The notes beneath the pieces were generated by a model, which did not search any database, was not told the origin of the DNA, and worked only from the letters and a program-made list of their open reading frames with translations. Position numbers and translations under genes: made by a program. From Achromobacter sp. Root83 (GTDB lineage Bacteria > Pseudomonadota > Gammaproteobacteria > Burkholderiales > Burkholderiaceae_B), in the NCBI RefSeq assembly GCF_001428845.1, contig NZ_LMIU01000012.1, forward strand, positions 500,857 through 564,856: DNA of 64,000 nucleotides, in the 5' to 3' direction. Each line of letters begins with the position of its first letter. Position 1 is the first letter of the stretch. Shown here piece after piece: positions 32,988 through 40,024 of this stretch.

Positions 32988-34148
<1,161 letters not shown>

Positions 34149-34248: not shown

Positions 34249-35130
34249 ATGTCGATTCTGATCAACAAGGACACCAAAGTCATCACCCAGGGCATCACGG
34301 GTAAGACGGGTCAGTTCCACACCCGCATGTGCCGTGAGTACGCCAATGGCAAGGCCGCCTTCGTGGCCGGCGTGAACCCCAAGAAGGCGGGTGAAGACTT
34401 CGAAGGCGTGCCGATCTTCGCTTCGGTGAAGGACGCCAAGGCCGACACCGGCGCGACCGTGTCGGTCATCTACGTGCCGCCGGCTGGCGCCGCCGCCGCG
34501 ATCTGGGAAGCTGTCGAAGCCGAACTGGATCTGGTGATCTGCATTACCGAAGGCATCCCGGTCCGTGACATGCTCGAAGTCAAGAACCGCATGAAGGCCA
34601 AGGGCAGCAAGACGCTGCTGCTGGGCCCGAACTGCCCGGGTCTGATCACCCCCGACGAAATCAAGATCGGCATCATGCCCGGTCACATCCACCGCAAGGG
34701 CCGCATCGGCATCGTCAGCCGTTCGGGCACCCTGACGTACGAAGCCGTGGCGCAAGTCACCGAGCTGGGCCTGGGTCAATCCAGCGCCGTCGGCATCGGT
34801 GGCGATCCCATCAACGGCCTGAAGCACGTCGACGTGCTCAAGCTGTTCAATGACGATCCCGACACCGACGCCGTCATCATGATCGGCGAAATCGGCGGTC
34901 CCGACGAAGTCAATGCCGCCGAATGGGCCAAGGACAACATGAAGAAGCCGGTCGTCGGCTTCATCGCTGGTGTCACCGCGCCCGCCGGCAAGCGCATGGG
35001 CCACGCTGGCGCCCTGATCTCCGGTGGCGCCGACACGGCCGACGCCAAGCTGGAAGTGATGGAAGCTTGCGGCATCCGCACCACGCGCAACCCCTCCGAA
35101 ATGGGCAAGCTGCTCAAGTCGGTGCTGTAA
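34249..35130 (+). CDS. sucD: Succinyl-CoA synthetase alpha subunit
   Basis: The 293-residue subunit starts [20 protein letters not shown] (CoA-binding Rossmann) and carries the phospho-histidine in [17 protein letters not shown] near residue 246. It is full length. ATG 34249 has AAGGAT upstream. A strong terminator follows. Confidence 0.98.
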
Positions 35131-35388: not shown

Positions 35389-36087
35389 ATGGAACTCAGT
35401 TCAGCGGCATTCTGGATAGCGTTGCTCCAGATCATTTGGGTCAATATCCTGCTATCCGGCGACAACGCCGTGGTTATTGCGCTGGCGGCGCGTTCGCTGC
35501 CTCCGGCGCAACAGAAGAAAGCGATCGTGGTCGGCTCCGCTGCCGCGATCATCATGCGTATCGTATTGACGCTCGTGGCGGCCAAATTGCTGCTGTTGCC
35601 GTGGCTCAAGCTCATCGGCGCGCTGCTCCTGGTCTACATCGGCGTGACGCTGCTGATGCCGGAAGGCGAAGAAGACGGCGCGGGCAAGACGCAAGGCAAT
35701 TTGTTCACGGCAATTCGCACTATCATGATTGCCGACCTGGTCATGAGCCTGGACAACGTGGTGGCTGTAGCCGCCGCCGCGATGGGCGACACGACCTTGC
35801 TGGTATTGGGCTTGGCGATCAGCATCCCCTTGGTCATCTTTGGCAGCACGCTGCTCCTGAAGGTCATCGAGCGCTTCCCGGTTATCGTCTGGGTGGGTGC
35901 GGCGTTGCTGGGCTTCATTGCTGGCGAGTTGCTGGTGGGGGATCCCGCCTTGCAGGAACCAGTGGCGCGCATAGACGCTGCCCTGGGTGTGTCACAGCAC
36001 AGCTTCGCGATGATGACGGGCGTGCTGGGCGCGGTGCTTGTTTTGGCGATCGGAAAAGTTTTGGTGATGCGCCAGAAAGCTGACTGA
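35389..36087 (+). CDS. TerC-family membrane protein, copy 1
   Basis: The 232-residue protein has about seven helices and the two TerC acidic motifs: LLSGDNAVVIALAAR near residue 22 and VMSLDNVVAVAAAAM near residue 118. TerC proteins are linked to manganese export and metal loading of exported enzymes. It is followed by a paralogue after 111 bp. Its ribosome site lies in a hairpin, suggesting translational control. Confidence 0.93.
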   Translation: MELSSAAFWIALLQIIWVNILLSGDNAVVIALAARSLPPAQQKKAIVVGSAAAIIMRIVLTLVAAKLLLLPWLKLIGALLLVYIGVTLLMPEGEEDGAGKTQGNLFTAIRTIMIADLVMSLDNVVAVAAAAMGDTTLLVLGLAISIPLVIFGSTLLLKVIERFPVIVWVGAALLGFIAGELLVGDPALQEPVARIDAALGVSQHSFAMMTGVLGAVLVLAIGKVLVMRQKAD

Positions 36088-36122: not shown

Positions 36123-36170
36123 CTCGCCGCGCGCAGCGCGGCGAGTCGGCCGGCTCGGGACCGGCCATTC
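36123..36170 (+). promoter_or_regulatory. Two GC-rich hairpins in the TerC intergenic leader
   Basis: CTCGCCGCGC (36123-36132) and GCGCGGCGAG (36136-36145) form a perfect 10-bp stem with a GCA loop; GGCCGG (36148-36153) and CCGGCC (36161-36166) form a second stem followed by ATTCTTTT. They may act as a weak terminator, attenuator or mRNA stabiliser. Confidence 0.6.
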
Positions 36171-36198: not shown

Positions 36199-36918
36199 GT
36201 GCTTGAGTTTTTACAGACGCTGAGTTGGGCAGCGGTATTCCAGATCATCCTCATCGACATCCTGCTTGGCGGCGACAACGCCGTCGTGATCGCGCTGGCT
36301 TGTCGCAACCTGGCGCCCAAGCAGCGCATGCAAGGCATCCTGTGGGGTACCGCCGGCGCAATCATCTTGCGTGTCGTGCTGATTGCCTTCGCCCTGACGC
36401 TCTTGTCGATCCCCTTCCTGAAGGTCGTGGGTGGCGTGCTGCTGCTCTGGATCGGGGTCAAGCTCCTGGTTCCCGAAGACGATGCGCATGGCAACGTAAA
36501 GGGCGGAACATCCATCGCCGCCGCCATCAAGACCATCATCATCGCTGACTTCGTGATGAGCCTGGACAACGTCATCGCCATCGCTGGCGCGGCCCAGAAT
36601 GCCCACGCCGATCATCAGATCGGCCTGGTCGCCTTTGGCCTGATCGTCAGTGTGCCGATCATCATCTGGGGCAGCACGCTGGTCCTCAAGCTCATCGACC
36701 GCTATCCGCTGGTTGTCACGTTTGGCGCGGCTTTGCTCGGCTGGATCGCGGGCGGCATGTTGATCACCGATGTGATTGTCGAACGTCATTTCGGCGTTCA
36801 GCCCACTACGGTTAAAATCGCTGCAGAAATTATCGGCGCCTTGCTCGTTGTTGTCCTTGGACGGTGGCTGGCAAGCCGCAAAACCGCTTCCAAGGAATCA
36901 GCACATGAGTCTGCGTAG
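36199..36918 (+). CDS. TerC-family membrane protein, copy 2
   Basis: The 239-residue paralogue starts with GTG and has the matching motifs LLGGDNAVVIALACR near residue 22 and VMSLDNVIAIAGAAQ near residue 115. About seven helices are expected, with a polar C-terminal tail. It overlaps the next small gene by 14 bp. The pair likely arose by tandem duplication, though identity is moderate. Confidence 0.92.
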   Translation: MLEFLQTLSWAAVFQIILIDILLGGDNAVVIALACRNLAPKQRMQGILWGTAGAIILRVVLIAFALTLLSIPFLKVVGGVLLLWIGVKLLVPEDDAHGNVKGGTSIAAAIKTIIIADFVMSLDNVIAIAGAAQNAHADHQIGLVAFGLIVSVPIIIWGSTLVLKLIDRYPLVVTFGAALLGWIAGGMLITDVIVERHFGVQPTTVKIAAEIIGALLVVVLGRWLASRKTASKESAHESA

Positions 36919-37027
36919 ATCCGTCGATCCCCAGCAATCCGAATCGGGCCTGAGCCTTCTTCAGGGTCTGTTCGTGCTGGCCATCCTCGGGATAGTCGCG
37001 ACGGTCATCGTCTCCAATTTTGTTTGA
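36905..37027 (+). CDS. 40-residue pilin-like membrane microprotein
   Basis: ATG 36905 lies inside the terC copy 2 gene (14-bp overlap) and the product is 40 residues: a polar leader MSLRRSVDPQQSESG, then a single hydrophobic helix, LSLLQGLFVLAILGIVATVI. This aligns position by position with the N-terminal helix of type IV pilins (G at -1, small polar at +2, hydrophobic stretch, A-I-x-G-I at +11 to +15), except that Glu at +5 is Gln and no globular domain follows. It sits 9 bp before hemC. Confidence 0.55.
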   Translation: MSLRRSVDPQQSESGLSLLQGLFVLAILGIVATVIVSNFV

Positions 37028-37036
37028 TGACGTCTC

Positions 37037-37981
37037 GTGTCTCTTCCGCAACGCCTGGTCATCGCGACCCGCGCCAGCCGGCTTGCCCTGTGGCAAGCCG
37101 AGCATGTGCGCGACCGGCTGCGCACGCTGTACCCGGCGTGCGCGGTTGAGCTTCTTACCCTGACGACCCGAGGCGACCAGATCCTCGACCGCACGCTCTC
37201 CAAAGTGGGCGGCAAAGGACTGTTCGTCAAGGAACTCGAAAACGCGCTGCTCGATGGGCGTGCCGATCTTGCCGTTCACTCCTTGAAGGACGTGCCGGTG
37301 GATCTGCAAGCCCCATTCGAGCTTTGCGCCGTCCTTGATCGCGCGGACCCGCGCGATGCCTTCGTGTCCAACCGCTATGCGTCGCTGGCAGACCTGCCAG
37401 CGGGCGCGGTCGTCGGCACGTCCAGCCTGCGCCGTGAATCCCAGATCCGCGCGCGCTATCCCGAGCTCGTCGTGAAACCCCTGCGCGGCAACCTGGACAC
37501 GCGTCTGGGCAAGCTGGACAAGGGCGACTACGACGCCATCGTGCTGGCGGCAGCCGGTCTTGAACGCCTGGGCCTGGGGGGGCGCATCAGCAGCTTGCTG
37601 GATGCCGCCGACAGCCTGCCGGCGGCCGGACAGGGCGCGCTGGGCATCGAGATCCGCGATGATCGCGGTGATATGCGTGCCTGGCTGGCGCCGCTGGTCA
37701 GCGCCGACACAACCGCCTGCGTATTGGCCGAGCGCGCCGTTTCGCGCAAGCTGGGCGGATCCTGCCAGGTTCCCCTTGCCGCATTCGCCCAGATCGCGGG
37801 TGGCACGCTGACGCTGCGGGCGCTGGTGGCGTCGCCGGACGGCGCACGCATGGTCCACGCCACGCGCAGCGGTCCCGTCAGCGCGGCCGAGGCCATCGGC
37901 GAGGCGGCCGCCGACGAACTGCTGCAGGCGGGCGCCCAGGCCATTCTGCGCGACTTGCTGCAGGACCCCGGGCCAGGCTGA
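37037..37981 (+). CDS. hemC: Porphobilinogen deaminase
   Basis: The 314-residue enzyme polymerises four porphobilinogens into hydroxymethylbilane. It has the family signatures [40 protein letters not shown] and the dipyrromethane-cofactor cysteine in [13 protein letters not shown]. The start is GTG 37037; the stop overlaps the hemD start by one base. Confidence 0.97.
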
Positions 37982-38796
37982 TGACCAAGGCGTCCGCAGC
38001 CGCCGAGAGGCCGCGCGTCGCCGTCCTGACGCGGCCCGCCGGGCGCAACGAGGCACTGGCCGGCCGTCTGTCGGACGCCGGCTGGTTGTCCTGCATCCTG
38101 CCCGCCCTTGAAATCCATCCCTTGCCGATTGCCCCCGAGGACCTGCCTCGGCCGGCCGGTTATGACATGGTTGTGTTTGTCAGCGGCAACGCCGCCAGGC
38201 AGTACCTCGACCAGCTTGCCCGGGTTGACGGGCCGGCGCCGTGGCCGGCAGGCGTGAGCGCGGCCACGGTGGGCCCGGCCAGCGCGCAGGCATTGCACGA
38301 GTCGGGGTGTTTTGGCGCGAATACAACAGTCCTGCATCCGGACGAGTCCGCGCCCAGCCACGATTCCGAGGCCCTGTGGCGCGTGCTCCAGGATCTGCCC
38401 ATGCCCGCCCGCGTGCTGCTGGTGCGCGGCACGCAAGGCAGGGACTGGCTAGGGGACAAGCTCGAGGCCGAGGGCGTCGCGGTCACGCGGCACGCCGCTT
38501 ACCTGCGGCGTCCGGCGCTCTGGCGTCCCGCGCAGTTGACCCAATTGCGGCGCTGGGCGGATGCCGGCGTCAGCGCCACCTGGCTGATCACCAGCGGCGA
38601 GGGCGCGGACGCCGCGCGCGCCGGGCTGGAGGCGGCGGGGCTGTCCGGCTGGTGGGAGCAGTGCGGCTTCGTGCTGACTCATCCCTCCCTTGCGCGCCGC
38701 CTGCCGGTGACGGCCGATGGCGCGTCGTGCCCGTCGATGGTAAAAATCTGCTTGCCCAACGACGAGTCGATATTCCAGGCTTTTGTTGCTGCTTGA
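37981..38796 (+). CDS. hemD: Uroporphyrinogen-III synthase
   Basis: The 271-residue protein has the low-conservation HemD fold: RPRVAVLTRPAGRNEALAG at the N-terminus, VFVSGNAARQYLDQL, VLLVRGTQGRDWLGDKL and a C-terminal ITSGEGADAAR. Assignment is strengthened by position between hemC and hemX. Start ATG 37981 overlaps the hemC stop (TGATG). Confidence 0.92.
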   Translation: MTKASAAAERPRVAVLTRPAGRNEALAGRLSDAGWLSCILPALEIHPLPIAPEDLPRPAGYDMVVFVSGNAARQYLDQLARVDGPAPWPAGVSAATVGPASAQALHESGCFGANTTVLHPDESAPSHDSEALWRVLQDLPMPARVLLVRGTQGRDWLGDKLEAEGVAVTRHAAYLRRPALWRPAQLTQLRRWADAGVSATWLITSGEGADAARAGLEAAGLSGWWEQCGFVLTHPSLARRLPVTADGASCPSMVKICLPNDESIFQAFVAA

Positions 38797-38833
38797 TTCG
38801 TTGCTTCGGACTGACACCGAATACAATCGCGTC

Positions 38834-40024
38834 ATGACAGACAAGACTCCCGCTACCGATCCGGTCGTTCATACGGCCGCCCCGGACGCAAACGCGTCCG
38901 CATCGGCCCCGGCCGATTCCGTCAAGGCCCGTCCGGCCAAGCGCGGCAGTGGCCCGTTGGTCACTGCCCTGATAATCGTCGTGCTGCTGGCCGTAGGCTT
39001 GGGCTACGCGCTCTGGAAGCAGCGCACGCAGTTCGTGTCCGCCGGACGCGAGGTCGCCACCCGCATCGAAACGCTCAGCGCCGACGTCGCGCAGGCCCGC
39101 AAGGACACGCGTGAAGCCTTGGCGCTGGCGCAGGCCCAGGCAGGACGCGTGGGCGAACTTGAAGACACCGTGCGTGAAACGCAAAGCCAGTACAACGCGT
39201 TGCAACTGGCCTGGCAGAACTTCAACGACAGCGCCAGCGACGAGCTTCTGGCTAACGACATCGAGCGTCTGCTGACGATCGCCAACCAGCAATTGCGCCT
39301 GGCCGGCAACGTTTCAAACGCCATCGTCGCCCTGGAAACCGCCCAGTCCAGGCTGGCGCGCGCCGACCGGCCGCGCTTCTCCAGCCTGCAGCAAGCGATC
39401 AACGGCGACCTCGATCGCCTGCGCGCCGTGTCCACGGTGGATATTCCCGCCCAGTCTGCCCGCATCGAACGCCTGGTCGCGCTGATCGGCAGGGCGCCCT
39501 TGCTGGTGCCAGACGCCGCCGCTCCGGGCATTGCGCCCGTCGGCGAATCCCAGCCGGCTGCTCCGGCGCCCACGGTGGACCCCCAGGCTGGCTTGCCCGC
39601 CGACGCTCCCTGGTGGCAGCGCTGGCGTGCGGAAGTGGCCTCTTGGCCCGGCCGCGCCGGCTCCGCGCTGGCGCATGAGCTGGGTGGGCTGATCACCATT
39701 CAGCGCGTGGACGAACCCGCCGCGCTGCTGCTGTCGCCCGAACAGGCTGACCAGGTGCGCGGCACGCTGCGTCAGCGCCTTCTGACGGCGCAACTCGCGA
39801 TGCTGATGCGTCAGTCGCCGGTCTGGAAAAGCGAACTCGAAAACGTCGGCGTGACGCTGTCCAAGTACTTCGACAACCGTTCTCCCGATACCGTCGCCGC
39901 CCAGACGCTGGCGCGCGAACTGGCGCAGATCGACATCGCCGTGCGCATGCCGGACGTGGCCGACAGCCTGAACGCCGTCGCGGCGCTGCGGGCTGCGGGC
40001 TTCAAGACCAGCGATCAGGACTAA
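38834..40024 (+). CDS. hemX: HemX-like membrane protein (PF04375)
   Basis: The 396-residue protein has a polar Ala/Pro-rich N-terminal tail, one membrane helix at about residues 38-58 (LVTALIIVVLLAVGLGYALW, in part), a coiled-coil region and a periplasmic C-terminal domain. This is the layout of HemX, often annotated as a methyltransferase without evidence of that activity. It is followed by hemY after 5 bp. Confidence 0.9.
   Translation: MTDKTPATDPVVHTAAPDANASASAPADSVKARPAKRGSGPLVTALIIVVLLAVGLGYALWKQRTQFVSAGREVATRIETLSADVAQARKDTREALALAQAQAGRVGELEDTVRETQSQYNALQLAWQNFNDSASDELLANDIERLLTIANQQLRLAGNVSNAIVALETAQSRLARADRPRFSSLQQAINGDLDRLRAVSTVDIPAQSARIERLVALIGRAPLLVPDAAAPGIAPVGESQPAAPAPTVDPQAGLPADAPWWQRWRAEVASWPGRAGSALAHELGGLITIQRVDEPAALLLSPEQADQVRGTLRQRLLTAQLAMLMRQSPVWKSELENVGVTLSKYFDNRSPDTVAAQTLARELAQIDIAVRMPDVADSLNAVAALRAAGFKTSDQD

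Follow-up and report, generated by a model that had tools for sequence, protein, structure and literature searches.

Within the 64,000-nt stretch of Achromobacter sp. Root83 DNA analysed here (the window), an open reading frame of 40 codons plus a stop occupies positions 36905-37027 of the plus strand, which also carries all the neighbouring genes described below. The frame begins with ATG, is translated as MSLRRSVDPQQSESGLSLLQGLFVLAILGIVATVIVSNFV, overlaps the end of the upstream YjbE-type terC copy 2 (36199-36918; PF03741, 8.5e-47; TIGR03717, 4.5e-70) by the 14 bp given in the original prediction, with the terC stop falling inside the frame, and ends, also as stated there, 9 bp before the GTG start of hemC (37037-37981), the gene of hydroxymethylbilane synthase (TIGR00212, 9.1e-106). 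A Shine-Dalgarno-like AAGGAA, read from the sequence at 36892-36897, stands 7 nt before the ATG and recurs at the same place in most Achromobacter and Bordetella loci of this microprotein. Downstream, a hemD-like uroporphyrinogen-III synthase gene (37981-38796), named by its position and homology, abuts hemC and is itself overlapped by a gene for a hemX-like membrane protein (38783-40024; PF04375 match at G000:C12:540095-540844); because these three genes abut or overlap, the set looks like one operon. Upstream lie terC copy 1, also of the YjbE type (35389-36087; PF03741, 5.1e-47), sucD (34249-35130) and sucC (32988-34148), the latter two assigned by synteny and together marking the ancestral slot sucC-sucD-terC-pilA. 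A terminator-like hairpin, GGCCGGCTCGGGACCGGCC, followed by ATTCTTTT, was also noticed between the two terC copies at 36148-36166, and an Rfam search across the window at gathering thresholds returned only a tRNA, with no Mn riboswitch before terC.

Pfam and NCBIfam scans yielded no significant family for the microprotein, and its orthologues were located in representative genomes by inspecting the sequence that precedes hemC or follows terC. Conservation of the frame in relatives, which the original prediction had proposed as a check, was evident in 37 sampled genera (36 in the tabulated set plus g39), with orthologues of 29-44 aa located mostly directly upstream of hemC; named records carrying it include Achromobacter, Bordetella, Candidimonas, Castellaniella, Pusillimonas, Paenalcaligenes, and Alcaligenes faecalis. 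At family level, 233 of 269 genomes returned a match, a loose count that takes in some true pilins. The Achromobacter copies comprise 27 distinct nucleotide sequences for 11 proteins, their variable sites are distributed as 12, 4, and 24 over the first, second, and third codon positions, and dN/dS was 0.16 for codons 6-40, which lie outside the terC overlap, and 0.10 for codons 13-40, while both other sense frames contain stops in all 27 sequences. Neither stops in the frame among relatives nor a dN/dS near one, the signs that had been named in advance as speaking against the gene, were thus encountered. These observations indicate, far beyond chance, that the microprotein ORF is a genuine gene with a putative peptide product, conserved in the family to which Achromobacter, Bordetella, and Alcaligenes belong. 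Losses of the gene in g6 (G077), g25, and some of the g21 genomes show that it is not essential. That the frame is simply a leader coupling ribosomes into hemC, its peptide being irrelevant, would suit the tight 14-bp overlap and 9-bp gap, but the amino acids themselves are under selection and the ORF persists in loci with no hemC downstream, so that we consider this explanation scarcely credible.

The predicted product consists of a hydrophilic 15-residue leader (36905-36949) ending in Gly15, position -1 in pilin numbering, and a single hydrophobic helix (36950-37024) with Gln at +5 (36962-36964) and an invariant Gly at +14 (36989-36991). The leader agrees with the 6-26 hydrophilic residues ending in Gly that characterize class III signal peptides, and the accompanying stretch of about 21 hydrophobic residues forming a helix is likewise present according to the sequence and to AlphaFold2, which predicted a helix over residues 9-39 with a pLDDT of about 93-96 over residues 21-40. 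The C-terminal globular domain of type IVa pilins is missing, since the window ORF ends at residue 40. Among the 36 tabulated genera, Gly14 is invariant, and Leu4, Ala11, and Leu3 are kept in 35, 34, and 33, respectively, all of these being pilin positions. The replacement of Glu by Gln at +5 and the lack of a globular domain, both pointed out from the window sequence at the outset, were confirmed: the +5 residue is Gln in 57 of 67 sequences, Lys in seven, Gly in two, Arg in one, and Glu in none. Pro22 of the pilin helix is also replaced. Of the 36 genera, 33 have Gly(-1) in one or more of their samples. It has been lost in g2, g4, g23, and g39, as well as in the majority of g12 and g43, where the helix stays; the proteins without it are as short as 29-36 aa in several genera, as exemplified by MEEKPKRSILQGLFILAVIGIVVTVAIHYLR and MKLKRPTLLQTLIVLAAIGIVARLMLSRITL. 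A helical periodicity of conservation, sought as the mark of an interaction face, was not significant (p 0.33). Of the features expected of bacterial small membrane proteins, which also include expression, a length below 50 aa, one predicted helix, and conservation across the family were observed.

Several lines of evidence connect this helix to pilins. A PDB search with the family profile retrieved pilins first (best E 7e-4) and in the same register, which bore out the residue-by-residue alignment of the original prediction. When an HMM made from the N-termini of 14 pilins that occupy the pilA slot in other families was run over 921 hydrophobic ORFs of the fetched loci, 30 real pilins came out on top, followed only by microproteins within the listed top 70. 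The best microprotein, from g31, reached an E-value of 3.9e-8, and the window copy 7e-4 at Z=10000, a modest value when taken alone; none of 400 helix-residue shuffles of the window copy reached its score, and a few divergent copies (G226, G135) do not stand out. As for the locus, the slot after sucC-sucD-(terC) holds a full-length pilin in 11 of 11 sampled genomes of the sister family f31, in one f49 genome, and in all four genomes of g22, a genus of the window's own family, and a full-length pilin directly follows sucD in four sampled f7 genomes. Furthermore, the g31 copies MKKFQKGMTLMQMLVLIGAIGVAVAIAVSYLR and MLNRSPRRQAGLTLMQVMSLLAIVGIVAAVLLTQFR resemble intermediates between pilin and microprotein. 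A SucD tree separates most pilA-bearing from microprotein-bearing taxa and has little strength within the family.

A conserved single-helix protein that resembles pilins only by convergence has to be weighed here, since short hydrophobic helices match one another easily and the window copy matches NCBIfam pilin models weakly (E 0.03). However, the microprotein shares the genomic slot of pilA, its Gly(-1), Ser/Thr2, Leu3-4, Ala11, and Gly14 stand in register with pilins, and both the g31 intermediates and the shuffle controls count against it, which makes convergence highly unlikely. By sequence and locus, the microprotein is homologous to type IV pilins, and the source of the helix appears to be the type IV pilin gene of the pilA slot, not a pseudopilin gene. 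The original proposal of either a stable single-helix protein or a pseudopilin remnant therefore stood as regards the single conserved helix and its pilin derivation, but not as regards the pseudopilin or the remnant: the slot is that of pilA, and the gene, far from decaying, is conserved under purifying selection. We also observed at the slot that a reduced 1.2-Mb genome of f31 (L194, G457) keeps a pilin-like gene with Gly at +5 (GFTLIGLMIVLALIGVL), and that two f7 loci (L203 and L206) have three tandem pilin genes downstream of sucD and two other genes.

Glu5, Gly14, and Pro22 are discussed as positions of the pilin helix, and Glu5 docks on the N-terminus of the neighbouring subunit in the filament (PMC5059446). 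Gly(-1) is absolutely critical for prepilin processing, whereas Glu5 is dispensable for it, and Glu5 mutants form no homopolymeric pili, yet can enter filaments mixed with wild-type subunits (PMC4471445). It is conceivable that the microprotein still belongs to type IV filament biology, with PilD cutting after Gly15 and the 25-residue helix co-assembling with, capping, or limiting T4P, T2SS, or Tad filaments, or occupying PilD. The wide retention of Gly(-1), as if processing mattered in those genera, the presence of prepilin peptidase and platform genes in most genomes tested, the behaviour of Glu5 mutants just mentioned, and the existence of Flp prepilins as short as 44 aa (PMC4471445) would all accord with such a role. 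In contrast, the helix persists in the lineages that lost Gly(-1), the gene does not lie in a pilus operon, and searches for the prepilin peptidase family PF01478 and the platform (T2SSF) family PF00482 gave no match in G108 and in the four g21 genomes G134-G137, all of which keep the microprotein. Since Gly(-1) is lost in several genera and genomes with no peptidase match keep the gene, processing by prepilin peptidase cannot be the conserved function; judged from the genomes, PilD-type processing, should it occur at all in species with Gly(-1), is dispensable for it, and the microprotein is not simply a pilus part. We therefore regard a filament-related role as unlikely, although it retains some weight. 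The genomes of G108 and G134-G137 measure 0.8-0.9 Mb, the size of endosymbiont genomes, and those of g21, to judge by their size, family, and heme genes, are probably Candidatus Kinetoplastibacterium, trypanosomatid endosymbionts placed in Alcaligenaceae near Bordetella and Achromobacter (PMC3154472). Survival of the microprotein in such tiny genomes could partly reflect lag. Many genera, but not the window's genome, have two paired T2SSF genes, probably the tadB/tadC of a Tad pilus, at a distance of some 14-20 kb from the microprotein (G127, G109, G103, G105, G118, G216, G173, G172, G080, and G083).

The close fit between terC copy 2 and hemC, and a stop that in most genera lies no farther than about 15 bp from where hemC begins, suggest as another candidate a dedicated small regulator or membrane anchor of the HemC/HemD/HemX enzymes or of the TerC metal transporter, as had been envisaged for the Hem or TerC proteins in the original prediction; the tiny genomes, moreover, keep the microprotein beside hemC though terC is no longer adjacent. 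Nevertheless, the microprotein is also kept where terC is not adjacent (L041, L050, L053, and L063), in g21 genomes whose only TerC is a long one (a frame of about 530 aa) located elsewhere, and in g31 and g41, whose copies do not adjoin hemC. G103 and G085 retain the microprotein although they have lost the native hemC and carry one of 36-39% identity elsewhere; a search of G108 for HemX (PF04375) gave no match, and the microprotein is present. The microprotein is thus not tied to one neighbour, and the regulator idea is weakened as an exclusive role, to the point of being quite unlikely. HemC was found in every genome tested except G139, so that HemC itself could be a partner. At the hem loci themselves, the operons of G103 (L039) and G085 (L037) lack hemC and a divergent copy occurs elsewhere in each genome, and in the gene tree G085 SucD falls among other families, which suggests replacement by transfer.

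Taken together, we favour, with a probability of roughly 0.6, the reading that the microprotein is an exapted pilin helix, an autonomous single-pass inner-membrane microprotein selected as a free helix. The gene of the major type IV pilin, pilA, would have lost everything after its N-terminal helix. By analogy with pilin topology, the product would insert into the membrane like a prepilin, its short, positively charged N-terminus facing the cytoplasm and its helix spanning the bilayer. Lacking Glu5, Pro22, and the globular domain, it would presumably build no pilus alone, as the published Glu5 mutants suggest, and the free helix may instead work by packing, through its conserved helix, against another membrane component. 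The 14-bp overlap and the 9-bp gap imply that its translation is probably coupled to terC copy 2 upstream and to hemC downstream. The fuller history, to which we attach about even odds, is that early in Alcaligenaceae a major pilin gene was reduced to the part encoding its membrane assembly helix, lost its processing and polymerising features, and became a pilus-independent inner-membrane regulator or structural helix, important enough to survive in some endosymbiont genomes of 0.8-0.9 Mb.

Flp pilins have the motif Glu5-Tyr6 after the Gly. The microprotein resembles these pilins of the Tad system in being helix-only, but has Gln5-Gly6 instead, and its gene is not in a tad operon. With the type IVa major pilin PilA, encoded at the sucCD-terC-pilA locus of related families, it shares the slot, the hydrophilic leader ending in Gly, and Ser/Thr2, Leu3, Ala11, and Gly14 in register; unlike PilA, it has no globular domain, carries Gln in place of Glu5, lacks Pro22, does not universally keep Gly(-1), and is retained in genomes without a prepilin peptidase match. 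The truncated pilins of Geobacter and other Desulfuromonadales, similarly reduced from full-length pilins towards the N-terminal helix, keep Glu5, build pili, and adjoin the gene of a companion C-terminal protein (PMC5174107), whereas the microprotein is devoid of Glu5 and is flanked by terC and hemC, with no companion gene seen there. CydX (37 aa; PMC4325964) is alike in size, in its single helix, and in being encoded in an operon with larger proteins, but its partner is the bd oxidase (PMC4325964), and the microprotein is set apart by its pilin descent.

Other reduced or unusual pilin-like frames were encountered along the way. Family f34 has helix-only pilin-like microproteins of its own, for example MGNAKNAQKGLTILQLMAILAIAGILATIAMRYFTNQ, in unrelated contexts (L281, 1494-1614, in G546; L282 in G655; L283 in G656; and L284 in G424), which may have arisen by a separate reduction of this kind. 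Elsewhere in the order, in other families (L081, L083, L084, L086, and L094), pilin frames of about 65-89 aa with intact Glu5 recall the Geobacter truncated pilins, and L081 and L083 contain short Glu5-bearing frames in tandem. In a 1.6-Mb genome, repeated profile matches near 565941 and 569557 of G355:C1 (L091), each with an in-frame TGA, lie in frames of 549-687 codons and may represent a chance frame or something odd.

Literature searches on pilin, microprotein, and Bordetella, or on small protein and hemC, with most subscription papers outside their reach, returned nothing on such a microprotein. To our knowledge, a pilin helix that has dispensed with Glu5 and the globular domain, and in some genera with the cleavage site as well, and yet occurs family-wide and in genomes devoid of the machinery, constitutes a new variant. 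The origin of most bacterial microproteins cannot be traced. Here, by contrast, genomes document the source gene, the slot, the near-intermediates, and the losses, so that the microprotein would clearly exemplify how a structural subunit can become a free membrane helix. The finding also carries a warning, in that such frames could be mistaken for prepilins or passed over by annotation. For Achromobacter, Bordetella, and Alcaligenes, which comprise both pathogens and environmental genera, it would add a conserved small gene upstream of the heme operon.
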